A stretch of DNA of 64,000 bases, taken from Hyphomicrobiales bacterium. Lineage in GTDB: Bacteria; Pseudomonadota; Alphaproteobacteria; Rhizobiales; Kaistiaceae. Shown piece after piece: positions 53,385-59,676 of this stretch. Position 1 is the stretch's first letter. The number at the start of each line of letters is the position of its first letter. Position numbers and translations under genes: made by a program. Below the pieces are notes generated by a model. The model saw only the letters and a list, made by a program, of their open reading frames with translations, did no database searches and was not told the origin of the DNA. The stretch lies in the NCBI GenBank assembly GCA_017305635.1, contig JAFKKF010000006.1, forward strand, positions 186,001 through 250,000, written 5' to 3'.

Positions 53385-54323
53385 TCAGCCGGATCTCGTC
53401 GCCAGTATCTGCGATGCGGTTCCCGTGTCGGTGGCGAGCGCATTGATCAGGCCGCTGCGCGCCGCACCGAGAATGCTGACCGCCTTGCTGGCCGCGGCGG
53501 CGACGCCGATGCGGATGGGCACCGAAACGAGCTGCTCCTCGCTGATTGAGAAGAGCATCGCTTCGTCCCGCCAATGGACGCGCTTGCCATTGGCGTCGAA
53601 ATAGCGGAGCAGCACGTCGCCGACGGCATGATCAATGGCGGGATCGTTCGGCGTGACGGCCGCGTCGTTGCTCGAATGGGTGCCGCCATGCGGCCGCCCG
53701 ACGCCCACGATTACGGCATCGAGGCGGTTCCACAGGTCGAGACTGTCCCGGATGCGGGCGTCCTTGCTGAGCGCGCGGCGCGCCTCGCTGGCGAGCAGGT
53801 AGGGGACATGCAGGAACTTAGGCAGGCCGCCGAGCTGGGCTGCGGCAAGGCGGGCGATCTCGCCGATCTGGAATTGCGGCGCCGCTTCCGGGATGCCGCC
53901 GCAGAGGGGCACCGTGGTGACGCCATGTATCTTGGGCAGTCCGACCTGGATTACCTCCCAGACCGTGCGACCCCAGCCGATCCCGAGGGTCGATCGCGGT
54001 CCGAACCTCGCCTGCTTGAGCAGGCGGCCGACGGGATCGGCAAGCGCCGCGAGGCTTCCGGGCGCCGGCGCGCTCGGCGCGAGCGCGACATGGGCGAGGC
54101 CGAGGGTCTCGCGCAGCTCCTCGGCGAGCTCGTCGGTGCCGATCGAGTCGGCGATCTCGATGCGCACTATCCCCTCCTCGCGCGCGCGCCGGAGGAGGCG
54201 CGACACCGTCGCGGTCGAGAGCTTCATCTGCTCGGCAATCTCGCGCTGCGAGAGGTCCTTCTCGTAGTGCAAGCGGGCGACGGTGTGGAGCAGGGTGCGG
54301 GAGGCGGGCGAGGGAGCGTCCAT
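53385..54323 (-). CDS. SorC/DeoR-type sugar-binding transcriptional regulator
   Basis: 312-residue SorC-family regulator. Helix-turn-helix SQREIAEQMKLSTATVSRLLRRA lies near residues 25-47 and the sugar-phosphate-binding domain contains GIGWGRTVWEVI and GVGRPHGGTHS. SorC proteins respond to a phosphorylated sugar. Divergent from the ABC importer genes, so the importer, aldolase and kinases are its likely targets. Confidence 0.87.
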   Translation of the reverse strand: MDAPSPASRTLLHTVARLHYEKDLSQREIAEQMKLSTATVSRLLRRAREEGIVRIEIADSIGTDELAEELRETLGLAHVALAPSAPAPGSLAALADPVGRLLKQARFGPRSTLGIGWGRTVWEVIQVGLPKIHGVTTVPLCGGIPEAAPQFQIGEIARLAAAQLGGLPKFLHVPYLLASEARRALSKDARIRDSLDLWNRLDAVIVGVGRPHGGTHSSNDAAVTPNDPAIDHAVGDVLLRYFDANGKRVHWRDEAMLFSISEEQLVSVPIRIGVAAAASKAVSILGAARSGLINALATDTGTASQILATRSG

Positions 54324-54454
54324 AATTGACTATTGCAATTTCCTTCTGGAACAAGTTACATCAGCCCGGCGCGCATGGCCAGTGATCCATTCGCAATAAC
54401 GCACGCCATGCGCCGCCAGGAAACGCTAAGCCCCTACAAGTCGGGAGGGAATAC
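54324..54454. promoter_or_regulatory. Divergent control region of sorC and the sugar operon
   Basis: Contains TATTGCAAT (54331-54339) and, inverted, CGCAATA (54392-54398), possible SorC half-sites about 60 bases apart, plus TTGACT (54326-54331) that could be a -35. No convincing -10 was found. Read as a plausible operator region only. Confidence 0.4.
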
Positions 54455-55441
54455 ATGAACGCTCGCAAAGCACTGCTCTCTTGCGCAGCCGCGGCCGTCG
54501 TCGTGGCACTGGCCGGTGCTTCGGCCCAAAGCGCGGACAAGAAGACGATCGCGCTGGTCTATGGCATCAAGGGCGACGCCTTCTACGTGACCATGGAGAA
54601 GGGCGCCAAGGCCAAGGCGGCCGAGCTCGGCGTCGACCTGATCGCCGATGGCCCGTCGCAATGGAACCCGGCGATCCAGACGCCGATCGTCGATGCCATG
54701 ATCGCCCGCAAGGTCGACGGCCTCATCGCCGTCCCGAACGACCCGCAGGCCATGATCCCGGCGTTGCAGCGCGCCAATGACGCCGGCATCCCGATCGTCA
54801 CCACCGATCAGTACATCGGCGACGGCGACTATGCGAAAGGCTCGGTGACCTTCCCGCTCAGCTACGTCGCGTCGGATAATTTCGGCGGCGGCAAGCTCGC
54901 CTGCGAGACGCTGATCAAGGGGATGGGCGGCAAGGGCACGCTCTACGTCCTCGTCTCGACGCCGAACGTGCCCTCGGACGTGGCGCGCCGCGACGGCTGC
55001 CTCGAAGCGGTGAAGGCGGCCGGCGACGGCGTCAAGCTCGCCGGTGTCGACTACACGCAGAGCAATGCCACGATCGCCACCACGCAGACCCAGGCGGCGC
55101 TGCAGAAGGATCCGACCATCGGCGCGATCTTCGGCGGCAATCTCTTCAGCGCGCAGGGAGCCTCGGCGGCCGTCAAGACCGCCAACCTGGCGGGGGCGGT
55201 GAAGATCGCCAGCTTCGATGCGCCGGAGCAGGCAATCGACGACCTGCGCAACAAGGTGGTCGACATCGTCATCGCGCAGCAGCCGGCGCTGATCGGCGCA
55301 ACCGCGGTGCAATACATCGTCGATGCCCTCAACGGAAAGACGGCCGACATCCCGAAGAAGCTGGCGACGCCCTTCGTCGTCATCACGCGCGAAAACGTCG
55401 ACTCGCCGGAAGCCCAGGCGGCAATCTACAAGAGCGAGTGA
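54455..55441 (+). CDS. Sugar ABC transporter periplasmic-binding protein (FrcB-like)
   Basis: 328-residue protein with a Sec signal (first ~26 residues, cut near SAQS|AD) and a periplasmic-binding-protein type I fold as in ribose/fructose binders: KTIALVYGIKGDAFYVTMEKG, GLIAVPNDPQAMIPALQ, GIPIVTTDQYIGDG and IASFDAPEQAIDDL. First of the BCA-ordered importer genes, like frcBCA of Sinorhizobium. The ligand is not readable; a ketose or related sugar is likely. Confidence 0.88.
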   Translation: MNARKALLSCAAAAVVVALAGASAQSADKKTIALVYGIKGDAFYVTMEKGAKAKAAELGVDLIADGPSQWNPAIQTPIVDAMIARKVDGLIAVPNDPQAMIPALQRANDAGIPIVTTDQYIGDGDYAKGSVTFPLSYVASDNFGGGKLACETLIKGMGGKGTLYVLVSTPNVPSDVARRDGCLEAVKAAGDGVKLAGVDYTQSNATIATTQTQAALQKDPTIGAIFGGNLFSAQGASAAVKTANLAGAVKIASFDAPEQAIDDLRNKVVDIVIAQQPALIGATAVQYIVDALNGKTADIPKKLATPFVVITRENVDSPEAQAAIYKSE

Positions 55442-55490
55442 CGAAGAGGCCCATCACCGTCGGGTTCTCCCTCCCGCATGAGGATGTAGG

Positions 55491-56579
55491 ATGACTGTCC
55501 AGTCGTCTGGGGGCGTCGGCTCTGCCGACGCCCCGGCCGCCGCGACCCGGTTCCTGAAGCTGCTCGGCCGGGTCTGGGCCTGGCTGTTCCTGCTCGCGCT
55601 GGTGCTCTTCTTCAGCGCGACGACGCCGCACTTCTTCGATCTCTTCAATTTCCAGGCCATGGGCGCGAACATGGCCATCGTGCTCGTGCTGGCGCTCGGG
55701 CAGACCTTCGTCATCATCACCGGCGGCATCGACCTCTCGGTCGGCTACGTGATGGGGCTCGCGACCATCGTCATATCGCTGATCATGCAGCACATGGTCG
55801 GCCAACCGCTGCCGGTGGCGCTGCTTGCCGGAACGGCGGGGGGACTGGCTGTCGGCCTGGTCGCCGGCCTGTTCAATGCCTTCGTCGTCGCCCGCCTCGG
55901 CGTCTCGCCCTTCATCGCCACGCTCGGGACGCTCGGCATCGCGCAGGGACTCGCCTACGTGCTCTCGGGCGGCCCGCCGGTCAGCATCCCGATCCCCGGC
56001 CTCGGCCAGCTCGGCAACGGCTACGTCGCCTATTGGCACGCCCAGTTCGGCCTCAGCTTCTTCGAGATGCCCGCCGGCGTCACCGGCCCGGAGGTGCGGA
56101 ACGTCTCGGGCTTCATCCCGCTGCAGCTCCTCTATGCCCTCATCCTCACGGGCCTCTGCGCGTGGCTGCTCTCCTCGACCCAGTTCGGACGCCACGTCTA
56201 TGCCATCGGCGGCAACGCCAAGGCGGCGCTGCGGGCGGGCATCCCGGTGAAGCGCAACCTGATGAAGGTCTACGTGCTATCTTCGGTGATGGCGGCCGTC
56301 GCCGGGCTCATGTACGTGCTCCGCTATACCGGCGGCGTCGCCAATTCGGGCGACGCGCTGCTTCTCTCCTCGATCGCGGCCATCGTCATCGGCGGCGCCT
56401 CGCTCTTCGGCGGCGAGGGGCGGATCACCGGCACGCTGGTCGGTGCGATGATCATCGCCGTGATCCAGAACGGCCTCGTCCTCTACGGCATCGATCCCTT
56501 CTGGCAATATGCCGCGGTCGGTGCGGTGATCATCCTGGCGGTGCTCGCCGACCAGGCCAAGCTGAGGATCGCGCGATGA
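55491..56579 (+). CDS. Sugar ABC transporter permease (FrcC-like)
   Basis: 362-residue inner-membrane permease of the BPD_transp_2 (RbsC-like) family with about 8-10 membrane segments. ITGGIDLSVGYVMGLATI, LGVSPFIATLGTLGIAQG and VYAIGGNAKAALRAGIPV are family blocks. The ATG is at 55491, 49 bases after the binding-protein gene. The ATPase gene overlaps its stop by 4 bases. Confidence 0.93.
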   Translation: MTVQSSGGVGSADAPAAATRFLKLLGRVWAWLFLLALVLFFSATTPHFFDLFNFQAMGANMAIVLVLALGQTFVIITGGIDLSVGYVMGLATIVISLIMQHMVGQPLPVALLAGTAGGLAVGLVAGLFNAFVVARLGVSPFIATLGTLGIAQGLAYVLSGGPPVSIPIPGLGQLGNGYVAYWHAQFGLSFFEMPAGVTGPEVRNVSGFIPLQLLYALILTGLCAWLLSSTQFGRHVYAIGGNAKAALRAGIPVKRNLMKVYVLSSVMAAVAGLMYVLRYTGGVANSGDALLLSSIAAIVIGGASLFGGEGRITGTLVGAMIIAVIQNGLVLYGIDPFWQYAAVGAVIILAVLADQAKLRIAR

Positions 56580-57334
56580 GCGCGGCGATGGCGATGCCGG
56601 CGCCCGTCCTGTCCTGCCGCGGCGTGGTGAAGCGCTTCGGCGGCCTGGTCGCGGTCAACAATGTCGACCTCGACCTCGCGCCGGGCGAGGTGTTGGCGCT
56701 GGTCGGGGACAACGGCGCCGGGAAGTCGACGCTGGTGCAGACGATATCGGGCGTCTTCCGCGCCGATGGCGGCGCCATCCACCTCAACGGCGAGAAGCAG
56801 GTCTTCGCGTCGCCGGAGGATGCGCGCCGCGCCGGGATCGAGACGATCTACCAGGACCTCGCGCTCTGCGACAATCTCACGGCCGCCGACAATATCTTCC
56901 TCGGCCGCGAGATCCGCACGCGTCGCCTCGGCTTCCTGCCGGGCATAGACGAGTCGCAGATGCGCGAGAAGGCGAAGACGGTGCTCGACGAGCTCCACAT
57001 CCGCATCCCCGACCTCGACGCACCGGTGCGCTCGCTCTCGGGCGGGCAGCGGCAGGCGGTGGCGATCTCGCGGGCGGTCTACTGGCAGGCGCGCATCATG
57101 ATCATGGACGAGCCGACCGCGGCGCTCGGCGTGCCCGAACAGCGCAAGGTCATGGACCTCATCCGCATGTTGAAGGGCCGCGGCACGCCTGTCATCCTGA
57201 TCAGCCACAACATGCAGGACGTATTCGAGATTTCGGACCGCATCTTCGTGATGCGGCGCGGCAGCAAGGCGGGTGACTTCGTCACCGCCCGGACCGAGCC
57301 GAACGAGGTGGTCCGCACCATGATCGGCGGATAG
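56576..57334 (+). CDS. Sugar ABC transporter ATPase, single cassette (FrcA-like)
   Basis: 252-residue ATPase with one nucleotide-binding domain: Walker A GDNGAGKST, signature LSGGQRQAV, Walker B IMIMDEPTAAL and the H loop ILISHNM. Most sugar importers of this class use a double-length ATPase; single-cassette FrcA of Sinorhizobium is the exception, and the B-C-A gene order is the same here. It would act as a homodimer. Coupled to the permease gene. Confidence 0.92.
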   Translation: MSAAMAMPAPVLSCRGVVKRFGGLVAVNNVDLDLAPGEVLALVGDNGAGKSTLVQTISGVFRADGGAIHLNGEKQVFASPEDARRAGIETIYQDLALCDNLTAADNIFLGREIRTRRLGFLPGIDESQMREKAKTVLDELHIRIPDLDAPVRSLSGGQRQAVAISRAVYWQARIMIMDEPTAALGVPEQRKVMDLIRMLKGRGTPVILISHNMQDVFEISDRIFVMRRGSKAGDFVTARTEPNEVVRTMIGG

Positions 57335-57347
57335 AAAGCAGGACGAC

Positions 57348-58262
57348 ATGAGCAAGTTCACAACCGCGGAGCTGCGCGGCTTCCAGCAGGTATGCACGGC
57401 CGACGGTGCCATGGTGGCGATCGCCTGCGACCAGCGCGGCGGCATGCGCACGCTGCTCGCCGCCGATCCGGAAGCACAGAAGGCGATCACCGATGCCGAC
57501 CTCGGCAAGGTGAAGTCGGACATCGTGCAATATCTCGGCGCGCATGCCTCGGCGGTGCTCCTCGATCCGGTCTGCGCGGTGCCCGGCGTGGTCCAGGATG
57601 GGACGCTGCCGCGCGACGTGGCGCTCCTCATCGGGCTCGACGCTTCCGGCTACGATACCGATCCGTCCGGCCATCGCCTGTCGCGCCTCGCCAAGGGCGT
57701 CGGCGCGCGCCAGGTGCGCGAGCTCGGCGGCACGGCGGGCAAGATCATGGTGTATCTCCGCCCCGACCGTCCGCAGGCGAACGAGCACAACCTCGAGATC
57801 CTCAGGCATTGCATCGAAGATTTCGCGCGCGAGGACATGCTCCTCGTCGTCGAATTCCTCACCTACCCGCTGGAGGGCGAGGACAAGACCACCCACGCCG
57901 CGATGATGCCGGAACTGGTCGAGGGCGGCGTGCGCCTCTCGCTCGATTGCGGCGCCAAGCTTCTTAAGGTGCCGTTCCCCGGTACGGCGGAATCCTGCGG
58001 GCGCATCCATGCCATGGCGGCGGGCGTGCCGTGGACGATCCTGTCGGCGGGCGTCGATCATTCGACCTTCCTCGGCCAGGTGAAGACCGCGGTGGCCGCA
58101 GGCGCCGCGGGCGTGATCGCAGGACGCGCGCTGTGGAAGGACTGCATCTCGCTCGACCGCTCGGTCACCCGCGAGCGGCTCACGAACCTCGCGCTGCCGC
58201 GCCTCCGCGAGATCCACGCGGTGGTGAAGGAAGGCCGGCAGGCGCGCAAGAGCGCCGCCTGA
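57348..58262 (+). CDS. LacD/YihT-type class I aldolase
   Basis: 304-residue aldolase of the DeoC/LacD superfamily. AMVAIACDQRGGMRTLL resembles LacD and YihT, LLKVPFPG holds the candidate Schiff-base Lys207, and WTILSAGVDHSTFLGQVKTA then GVIAGRALWKDCI closes the barrel. LacD splits tagatose 1,6-bisphosphate and YihT splits sulfofructose 1-phosphate. Which substrate applies is not known. No other sulfoglycolysis gene is nearby. 13 bases after the ATPase gene. Confidence 0.85.
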   Translation: MSKFTTAELRGFQQVCTADGAMVAIACDQRGGMRTLLAADPEAQKAITDADLGKVKSDIVQYLGAHASAVLLDPVCAVPGVVQDGTLPRDVALLIGLDASGYDTDPSGHRLSRLAKGVGARQVRELGGTAGKIMVYLRPDRPQANEHNLEILRHCIEDFAREDMLLVVEFLTYPLEGEDKTTHAAMMPELVEGGVRLSLDCGAKLLKVPFPGTAESCGRIHAMAAGVPWTILSAGVDHSTFLGQVKTAVAAGAAGVIAGRALWKDCISLDRSVTRERLTNLALPRLREIHAVVKEGRQARKSAA

Positions 58263-58264
58263 CC

Positions 58265-59140
58265 ATGGAGGCGATCGGAATCGACGTGGGCGGCACCAAT
58301 CTCCGGGTCGCCCGCGTCGATTCGGAAGGCCGCATCGCCGTGACATGCGGGGCGCGGACGACGGGCGATCCGGCCGCGGCCCTCGCCGACATGCGGGCTT
58401 TGGTGCGCGAGGTGGACACGCCGGTGGTCCGCGGCATCGGCGTCGGCATTCCGGGCCGCGTCGACGCCGCCGCGCGGAAGGTGCTGTCGGGCGGCTTCCT
58501 CGACCTCTCGCGGGTCGACCTGGTCGAGGCGCTCGAGCGCGAAACGGGCAGGCCGGTCATCCTCGACGGCGATGCCAATCTTGCGCTCGTCGCCGAATGG
58601 CGCTTCGGTGCGGCGCGAGGCACGAAAAACGTCGTGATGATCACGATCGGGACCGGAATCGGAGGCGCGGCGCTGCTCGGCGGCAGGATATTGCGCGGGC
58701 GGATGAGCGGCGGACAGTTCGGGCACGTCACGGTCGAAGCAGGCGGGCGCGCCTGCGCCTGCGGTCGAACGGGATGCGTCGAGACAACGAGTTCCGGCAC
58801 CGCCCTCGGCCGGCTCATCGCCGAGGCGGGGATGCCGGCCGATACGCGGGTGGAAACGCTTCTCGCCGATGCGCGGCGAGGTGATGGTGCGGCGCTCGCG
58901 CTCCTCGGGCGCTGGGCAGCGCCGCTTCGCGCCGCGATCGACAGCCTCGTCGCGGTGCTCGATCCGGAGCGCGTGGTGCTCGGCGGCGGCCTCGGCTGGG
59001 CGGCCGTGGCAGCGCTCGACTATGCGCCCGCGCTCTCGCCCTGGTACCAGTCGCCGGTGGTGGCGGCCGAGCTCGGCGACCGGGCCGGCGTGATCGGCGG
59101 CGCCTGGGCGGCGATGAACCCGGAAGCGGTGGCGCCGTGA
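58265..59140 (+). CDS. ROK family sugar kinase
   Basis: 291-residue ROK kinase. The N-terminal phosphate loop is AIGIDVGGTNLRVARV, catalytic Asp103 lies in DGDANLA, and the zinc site is GQFGH (His154) with Cys164, Cys166, Cys171 (ACACGRTGC). It phosphorylates a hexose or related sugar at the 6-position by family. It starts two bases after the aldolase stop and its stop overlaps the next gene by 4 bases. Confidence 0.9.
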   Translation: MEAIGIDVGGTNLRVARVDSEGRIAVTCGARTTGDPAAALADMRALVREVDTPVVRGIGVGIPGRVDAAARKVLSGGFLDLSRVDLVEALERETGRPVILDGDANLALVAEWRFGAARGTKNVVMITIGTGIGGAALLGGRILRGRMSGGQFGHVTVEAGGRACACGRTGCVETTSSGTALGRLIAEAGMPADTRVETLLADARRGDGAALALLGRWAAPLRAAIDSLVAVLDPERVVLGGGLGWAAVAALDYAPALSPWYQSPVVAAELGDRAGVIGGAWAAMNPEAVAP

Positions 59141-59676
59141 AGCGGGCCATCCTGGTCAATGGCGTGCCGGCGAGCGGCAAGAGCACCGTGGCGCGCGCGC
59201 TCGCCGATCGCTGCGGCTGTTCGCTCCTGGCGCTGGACACGATCAAGGAGCCGTTCTTCGAGGCATTGGGGTCCGTCGACCGTGATCTCAACCGCAAGCT
59301 CGGCCGCGCCGCCTATGCCGCGATCTTCGACCTCATCGGCGCATTTCCCGACGGGATGGTCACCATCGTCGAAGCCTGGTTCGGCTTCCAGCCGCCGGAG
59401 GTGCTTGCCGGGCACGTTGCCCGCGCCGGCCTCGGCGCCGCGGTCGAAATCTGGTGCCACGCCCCGCCTGAGGTGATCGGTGCGCGATACGCGGCGCGGG
59501 TGCCGCTCCGTCCGCCGCAGCATCCCGGGCTCGACTACGTGCCGGAGCTCGTCGCGCTTGCCGGCCGCGCGCAGCCGCTGGGCGCCTATCCGCTATTGCC
59601 GATCGACACCACGGCGCCGCTCGACCTCGACATCTGCTGCGCTTTCCTGAAGCAGGCGGGCTTTCCGGTCGACTGA
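59137..59676 (+). CDS. Small P-loop kinase (AAA_33/CPT-like)
   Basis: 179-residue P-loop protein with Walker A VNGVPASGKSTVARAL and LDTIKEPFFEAL after it. This class includes gluconate-kinase-like and chloramphenicol-phosphotransferase-like small-molecule kinases. The start is GTG 59137, overlapping the ROK stop. Its placement next to a ROK kinase and an aldolase invites the idea that it adds the second phosphate to the sugar; unproven. Confidence 0.75.
   Translation: MKRAILVNGVPASGKSTVARALADRCGCSLLALDTIKEPFFEALGSVDRDLNRKLGRAAYAAIFDLIGAFPDGMVTIVEAWFGFQPPEVLAGHVARAGLGAAVEIWCHAPPEVIGARYAARVPLRPPQHPGLDYVPELVALAGRAQPLGAYPLLPIDTTAPLDLDICCAFLKQAGFPVD

Follow-up and report, generated by a model that had tools for sequence, protein, structure and literature searches.

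What sugar does the gene cluster at positions 53385-59676 of the 64,000-nucleotide stretch of DNA analysed here (hereafter the window) act on, and how is that sugar broken down? A first-pass annotation, made from the letters of the DNA, had described a sorC regulator, an FrcBCA-like importer, an aldolase, a ROK kinase and a P-loop kinase at this place. All these genes were indeed present, and the families guessed for them were confirmed, as listed here with their Pfam matches and a putative promoter element:

53385-54323, minus strand, divergent: sorC, sugar-responsive regulator of the SorC/DeoR family, 312 aa (PF04198, 7e-40)
54333-54360, plus strand, towards the operon: putative 28-bp promoter/operator element, TTGCAA, 17-nt spacer, TTACA(T)
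54455-55441, plus strand: periplasmic substrate-binding protein, CUT2 (RbsB class) (PF13407, 2e-51)
55491-56579, plus strand: CUT2 permease (PF02653, 5.1e-37)
56576-57334, plus strand: single-cassette importer ATPase, 252 aa (PF00005, 4.7e-31)
57348-58262, plus strand: class I aldolase of the LacD/YihT family (PF01791, 1.4e-22)
58265-59140, plus strand: ROK sugar kinase (PF00480, 1.6e-50)
59137-59676, plus strand: small P-loop kinase, putative ketose-phosphate C1 kinase (PF13671 AAA_33, 1.3e-9)

The permease and ATPase genes overlap by 4 bases, as do the ROK and P-loop genes, and the remaining gaps within the operon are short. The expectation of a CUT2 importer with a single-cassette ATPase held as well, because the 252-aa ATPase aligned only to the N-terminal half of the ~500-aa XylG/RbsA/YtfR models. 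The closest solved relative of the binding protein was 5dkv (7e-63).

A search for the P-loop and aldolase genes together in other genomes, as the first-pass annotation had advised, recovered a conserved set. Among 249 genomes sampled from the same order, orthologues of the two genes occurred in the identical 16 (Fisher p ~1.6e-25, uncorrected for relatedness), and they stood together in 79 of the 80 closest named relatives, the one exception being a locus cut by a contig end before the P-loop gene. These data indicate that the gene set is no chance grouping. All three genes of the triad (aldolase, ROK kinase and P-loop kinase) were present in 64 of these 80 loci, while another 15, every one from Enterobacterales, carried the aldolase and P-loop genes without ROK. 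The aldolase orthologues formed a group of 59-73% identity, set apart from distant aldolases at 28-36%, and a class-wide sample of 336 other genomes gave no aldolase match at E<=1e-60. Orthologues of sorC (42-69% identical) adjoined the aldolase gene in nearly all relatives. The gene set is thus real, conserved and coherent, its content and conservation being directly visible in the genomes.

The window aldolase scored 81 bits against PF01791 (cut-off 23.8), which places it in the DeoC/LacD domain family, and its PDB relatives were 8tnf, YihT (1to3) and LacD. Its K207 aligned with a lysine present in all 11 compared proteins (LacD, YihT and others) and is, by this alignment, the predicted Schiff-base lysine; D28, K132 and E169 were likewise retained in the 11. 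The protein fell below the NCBIfam equivalog TIGR01232 for lacD (63.2 bits vs 432.2) and below the cut-off of the nearest subfamily, PRK12858 (169.8 vs 184).

As for the two kinases, the DxGGT motif, the catalytic Asp and the Cys3His zinc motif of ROK were kept in 82-83 of 83 aligned sequences. QxGH stands in the place of the usual ExGH, with Gln151 in 83/83, so the ExGH expected of a glucokinase-type hexokinase is missing. In the P-loop kinase, Walker A, D34, K37, R49, R53, R117, R121, R125 and H129 were invariant in 44 orthologues. Its structural model (pLDDT 93.6; five alignment rows from plasmid records were left out) matched best the uncharacterised kinase 2rhm (Z 21), followed by PSTK and adenylate, APS, gluconate and shikimate kinases (Z 14-16), and a 6-phosphofructo-2-kinase domain was among the fold neighbours. 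The modelled fold and the conserved residues place this protein in the small-molecule kinase class (gluconokinase/shikimate/APS), a shared fold that by itself does not prove its reaction.

The relatives showed how the two kinases are combined and replaced. A single open frame encoded both ROK and P-loop at 58 of 82 loci (a few genomes being counted twice), and such fusions are annotated elsewhere as single ~480-aa proteins. In Enterobacterales both ROK and the ABC importer were absent and an ascorbate-type PTS (IIA, IIB and IIC; type assigned by Pfam and NCBIfam) was found instead, with the aldolase and P-loop genes retained; this PTS was present in 14 of the 15 ROK-less loci, the last being cut by a contig end. 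Because the P-loop gene stays where the PTS replaces ROK, and either ROK or the PTS can give the first phosphate, the P-loop protein would be the kinase that adds the second one. In a tree built by a quick method, the enteric sequences were nested within the rhizobial ones, beside Rhizobium, and the copy of Sodalis pHS1 grouped with Agrobacterium rubi, away from the other enteric sequences. Judging from these two separate branches, the exchange of ROK and importer for a PTS appears to have occurred twice, the second placement (Sodalis pHS1) being less sure on account of long branches.

Other replacements were seen in single genomes. In genome G100, a related importer was followed by a PFK-family kinase, a ROK kinase and a DeoC/LacD aldolase, and the P-loop gene was absent; the PFK motif reads GGNGS, which makes the activity of this protein uncertain. 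At a Klebsiella pneumoniae locus (CP125156), a class II ketose-bisphosphate aldolase (PF01116, 1e-77) took the place of the LacD-type enzyme and the P-loop gene was kept, evidence that is weaker because of frame breaks in the record. Some PTS versions carried both a PFK gene and a P-loop gene, leaving one kinase without explanation. The aspartate of GGDGS binds metal in known PFKs. In four of these versions, the enteric loci L057, L060, L120 and L128, the PFK-family genes read GGGGS and have lost it, and their products may be inactive or altered in function. The PTS forms were also accompanied by a protein of ~90-100 aa (L057:14831-15136, L101:13939-14241, L133:11225-11530 and L132:10714-10986), and a Pfam search of the L057 and L133 copies gave no match. 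The neighbours of sorC included a PdxJ-family protein and a HAD phosphatase on plasmids of Agrobacterium rubi and Rhizobium sp. SL42 (L134:9034-10473 and L136:9348-10853), with no obvious role in ketose breakdown.

Taken together, the cluster is probably an operon for the breakdown of a rare ketose that is configured like tagatose at C3-C5 (either D-mannoheptulose or D-tagatose), in which two kinases act before an aldolase. The binding protein, permease and ATPase would take up the free sugar; ROK, or the PTS in the enteric forms, would phosphorylate the sugar at its terminal hydroxyl (C7 or C6), and the P-loop kinase would add a second phosphate at C1. The LacD-family aldolase would then cleave the 1,7- or 1,6-bisphosphate into DHAP and erythrose-4-phosphate or glyceraldehyde-3-phosphate, respectively, and SorC would sense a sugar phosphate of the pathway and control a single promoter. 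We infer all these reactions, the sequence in which the kinases act, the effector of SorC and the sugar itself from the genes and their arrangement; the fusions and replacements are observed directly. That two kinases and a LacD-type aldolase act on an imported ketose had been proposed in the first-pass annotation, and the replacement and fusion patterns make it the best-supported reading; the accompanying view that this pairing was undescribed did not stand, as discussed below.

A further question is which of the two sugars is used. Most relatives carry, beside the operon, a binding protein of the frcB2 type, which is close to 5dkv (5e-154). We take 5dkv to be Avi_5339 of A. vitis in complex with D-tagatose, and this ligand was not used as evidence. 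Identity between the window binding protein and the frcB2 type is no more than 38%, which we counted against the favoured reading; the two share DAFY, NLFS, FDAP and a long IGxGDYxxG..FPLSY loop, suggesting a similar ligand. A model of the window protein built from the single sequence had a pLDDT of 44, and its fold comparison was set aside. D-mannoheptulose and D-tagatose have the same configuration at C3-C5, so one importer could serve both, and the substrate is probably one of them.

That the same chemistry serves D-tagatose specifically, as another form of the LacCD route in which the kinases are unrelated and the binding of mannoheptulose by relatives is incidental, is a sub-case of the favoured reading that we regard as possible but not as the expected one. 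Relatives of the importer do adjoin tagatose genes: in a Labrys genome the frcB2 importer has GatZ and a tagatose kinase of equivalog level as neighbours, and TagK- and GatZ-like genes adjoin the triad at about ten rhizobial loci. The same genes argue in the other direction, since TagK was found in 9 and GatZ in 12 of 16 triad genomes above curated cut-offs, so that D-tagatose would be handled twice in most of them. This redundancy speaks against D-tagatose as the triad's substrate, and with it against that part of the favoured reading, and it slightly favours mannoheptulose. For this importer type, mannoheptulose is also the sugar reported in print to be bound, by Avi_5339 and as others' unpublished data (PMC5507952). 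In the host genome, the best match to the TagK model reached 113 bits vs 420 and GatZ/KbaZ gave no match, which leaves no other such route there and favours D-tagatose; in this host either sugar is possible.

Other ketose-type loci were noticed during this comparison. Host contig C19 carries a second ketose-type importer (frcB2, 70%) adjoining an FGGY kinase (L185:7841-12402), and the promoter element described below was not found at that locus. Genes for a Gfo/Idh oxidoreductase, a sugar isomerase, a hydrolase, an Rpe-type epimerase and another ROK kinase are frequent neighbours of the same importer (L135:640-5050 and L136:17824-22253), a block that is probably a separate sugar route. In G071 (L187:5758-8308), this importer type occurs near a DhaK/DhaL-type kinase and a DhnA-type aldolase, which is another pairing of kinase and aldolase.

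The cleaved intermediate might also be a ketose 1-phosphate: ROK or the PTS would make the 1-phosphate, the aldolase would release DHAP and a free aldose, and the P-loop kinase would then phosphorylate this aldose in the manner of a triokinase. The aldolase is equally close to LacD and to YihT, an enzyme that requires no terminal phosphate, and a small polyol such as gluconate is a fitting acceptor for the P-loop fold. However, the fusion of ROK with the P-loop kinase fits consecutive steps, a bisphosphate-type aldolase (PF01116) can replace the LacD type, and in G100 a PFK-family gene occupies the place of the P-loop gene. We preferred the bisphosphate to the 1-phosphate on genome context only, which makes the 1-phosphate route unlikely. 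A sulfosugar pathway of the YihT kind (sulfo-EMP), which the first-pass annotation had also entertained, is very improbable. The aldolase does belong to the same family (27% identical to YihT), but the YihT route needs one kinase only, whereas an extra one is present here, and neither the window nor 100 related loci contain a sulfoquinovose isomerase (YihS), a sulfolactaldehyde reductase (YihU) or a sulfoquinovosidase, in line with the earlier remark that no sulfoglycolysis partner was visible.

An element with the consensus TTGnAATTCCTTTCwGnAATrTGTTACA was found beside sorC in 89 related loci of both classes, a common regulatory element that is directly seen in the sequences. The window copy (54333-54360), TTGCAATTTCCTTCTGGAACAAGTTACA, has 6 mismatches to this consensus, and the next best site in the window has 11. 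The 4.43-Mb host genome contained only one match at <=3 mismatches to a degenerate pattern; since this pattern was partly derived from the window copy, zero mismatches there are uninformative and what counts is the lack of a second site, which makes this operon the probable regulon. We infer that the element combines a promoter, its -35 and -10 boxes separated by 17 nt, with an operator lying in the spacer, a candidate SorC site. The same element serves both importer types (ABC and PTS), and it was not found at eight loci with an frcB2 importer but no adjoining triad. Consensus scans gave no promoter or terminator above chance.

How new is this arrangement? Leyn et al. (2017) described an ABC importer with a COG3684 aldolase, a ROK kinase and a P-loop kinase (named COG0529) in Rhodobacteraceae bin08, whose binding protein is 83% similar to Avi_5339, and proposed that D-mannoheptulose is phosphorylated twice and then cleaved, a proposal left untested (PMC5507952). 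By its description there, the bin08 locus has the same four components and the same proposed chemistry as the window, so the view that the pairing of ROK, an AAA_33-like kinase and a LacD aldolase was unrecognised is withdrawn: both layout and mechanism are already in print. The window importer differs in being a separate lineage from the frcB2 type, taken here as the Avi_5339 kind. Relative to what is available of that paper, the PTS forms, the ROK/P-loop fusions and the promoter element are added here. In the open-access literature we found in print neither the kinase fusion, the replacements that point to P-loop as second kinase, the PTS forms nor the common promoter, and no experimental test of the pathway by activity or growth.

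Among better-known routes, the LacABCD tagatose-6-phosphate pathway likewise adds two phosphates before a LacD-family class I aldolase acts, but it employs a PfkB second kinase and a lactose PTS, in contrast to the P-loop kinase, free sugar import and ROK kinase found here; no LacA, LacB or LacC homologues were found at this locus. The rhizobial TagK-GatZ tagatose route sometimes shares the locus and the importer type, but itself has neither a LacD-type aldolase nor a P-loop kinase.

More broadly, we suggest tentatively, at somewhat short of an even chance, that the P-loop protein founds a family of ketose-phosphate 1-kinases with an adenylate/gluconate-kinase-type fold unrelated to PfkA, PfkB or FGGY, that its fusion to ROK in many rhizobia is a bifunctional sugar-bisphosphate synthase, and that both belong to a dedicated heptulose pathway which has passed between Rhizobiales and Enterobacterales. 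The proposed operon would answer the question of how a rare ketose is degraded by plant-associated bacteria, would provide a function for a family of small P-loop kinases that is today annotated merely as AAA ATPase, and would explain the extra P-loop domain in many rhizobial 'ROK family proteins'. If the substrate has seven carbons, it would be a rare example of a dedicated catabolic route for a heptulose.
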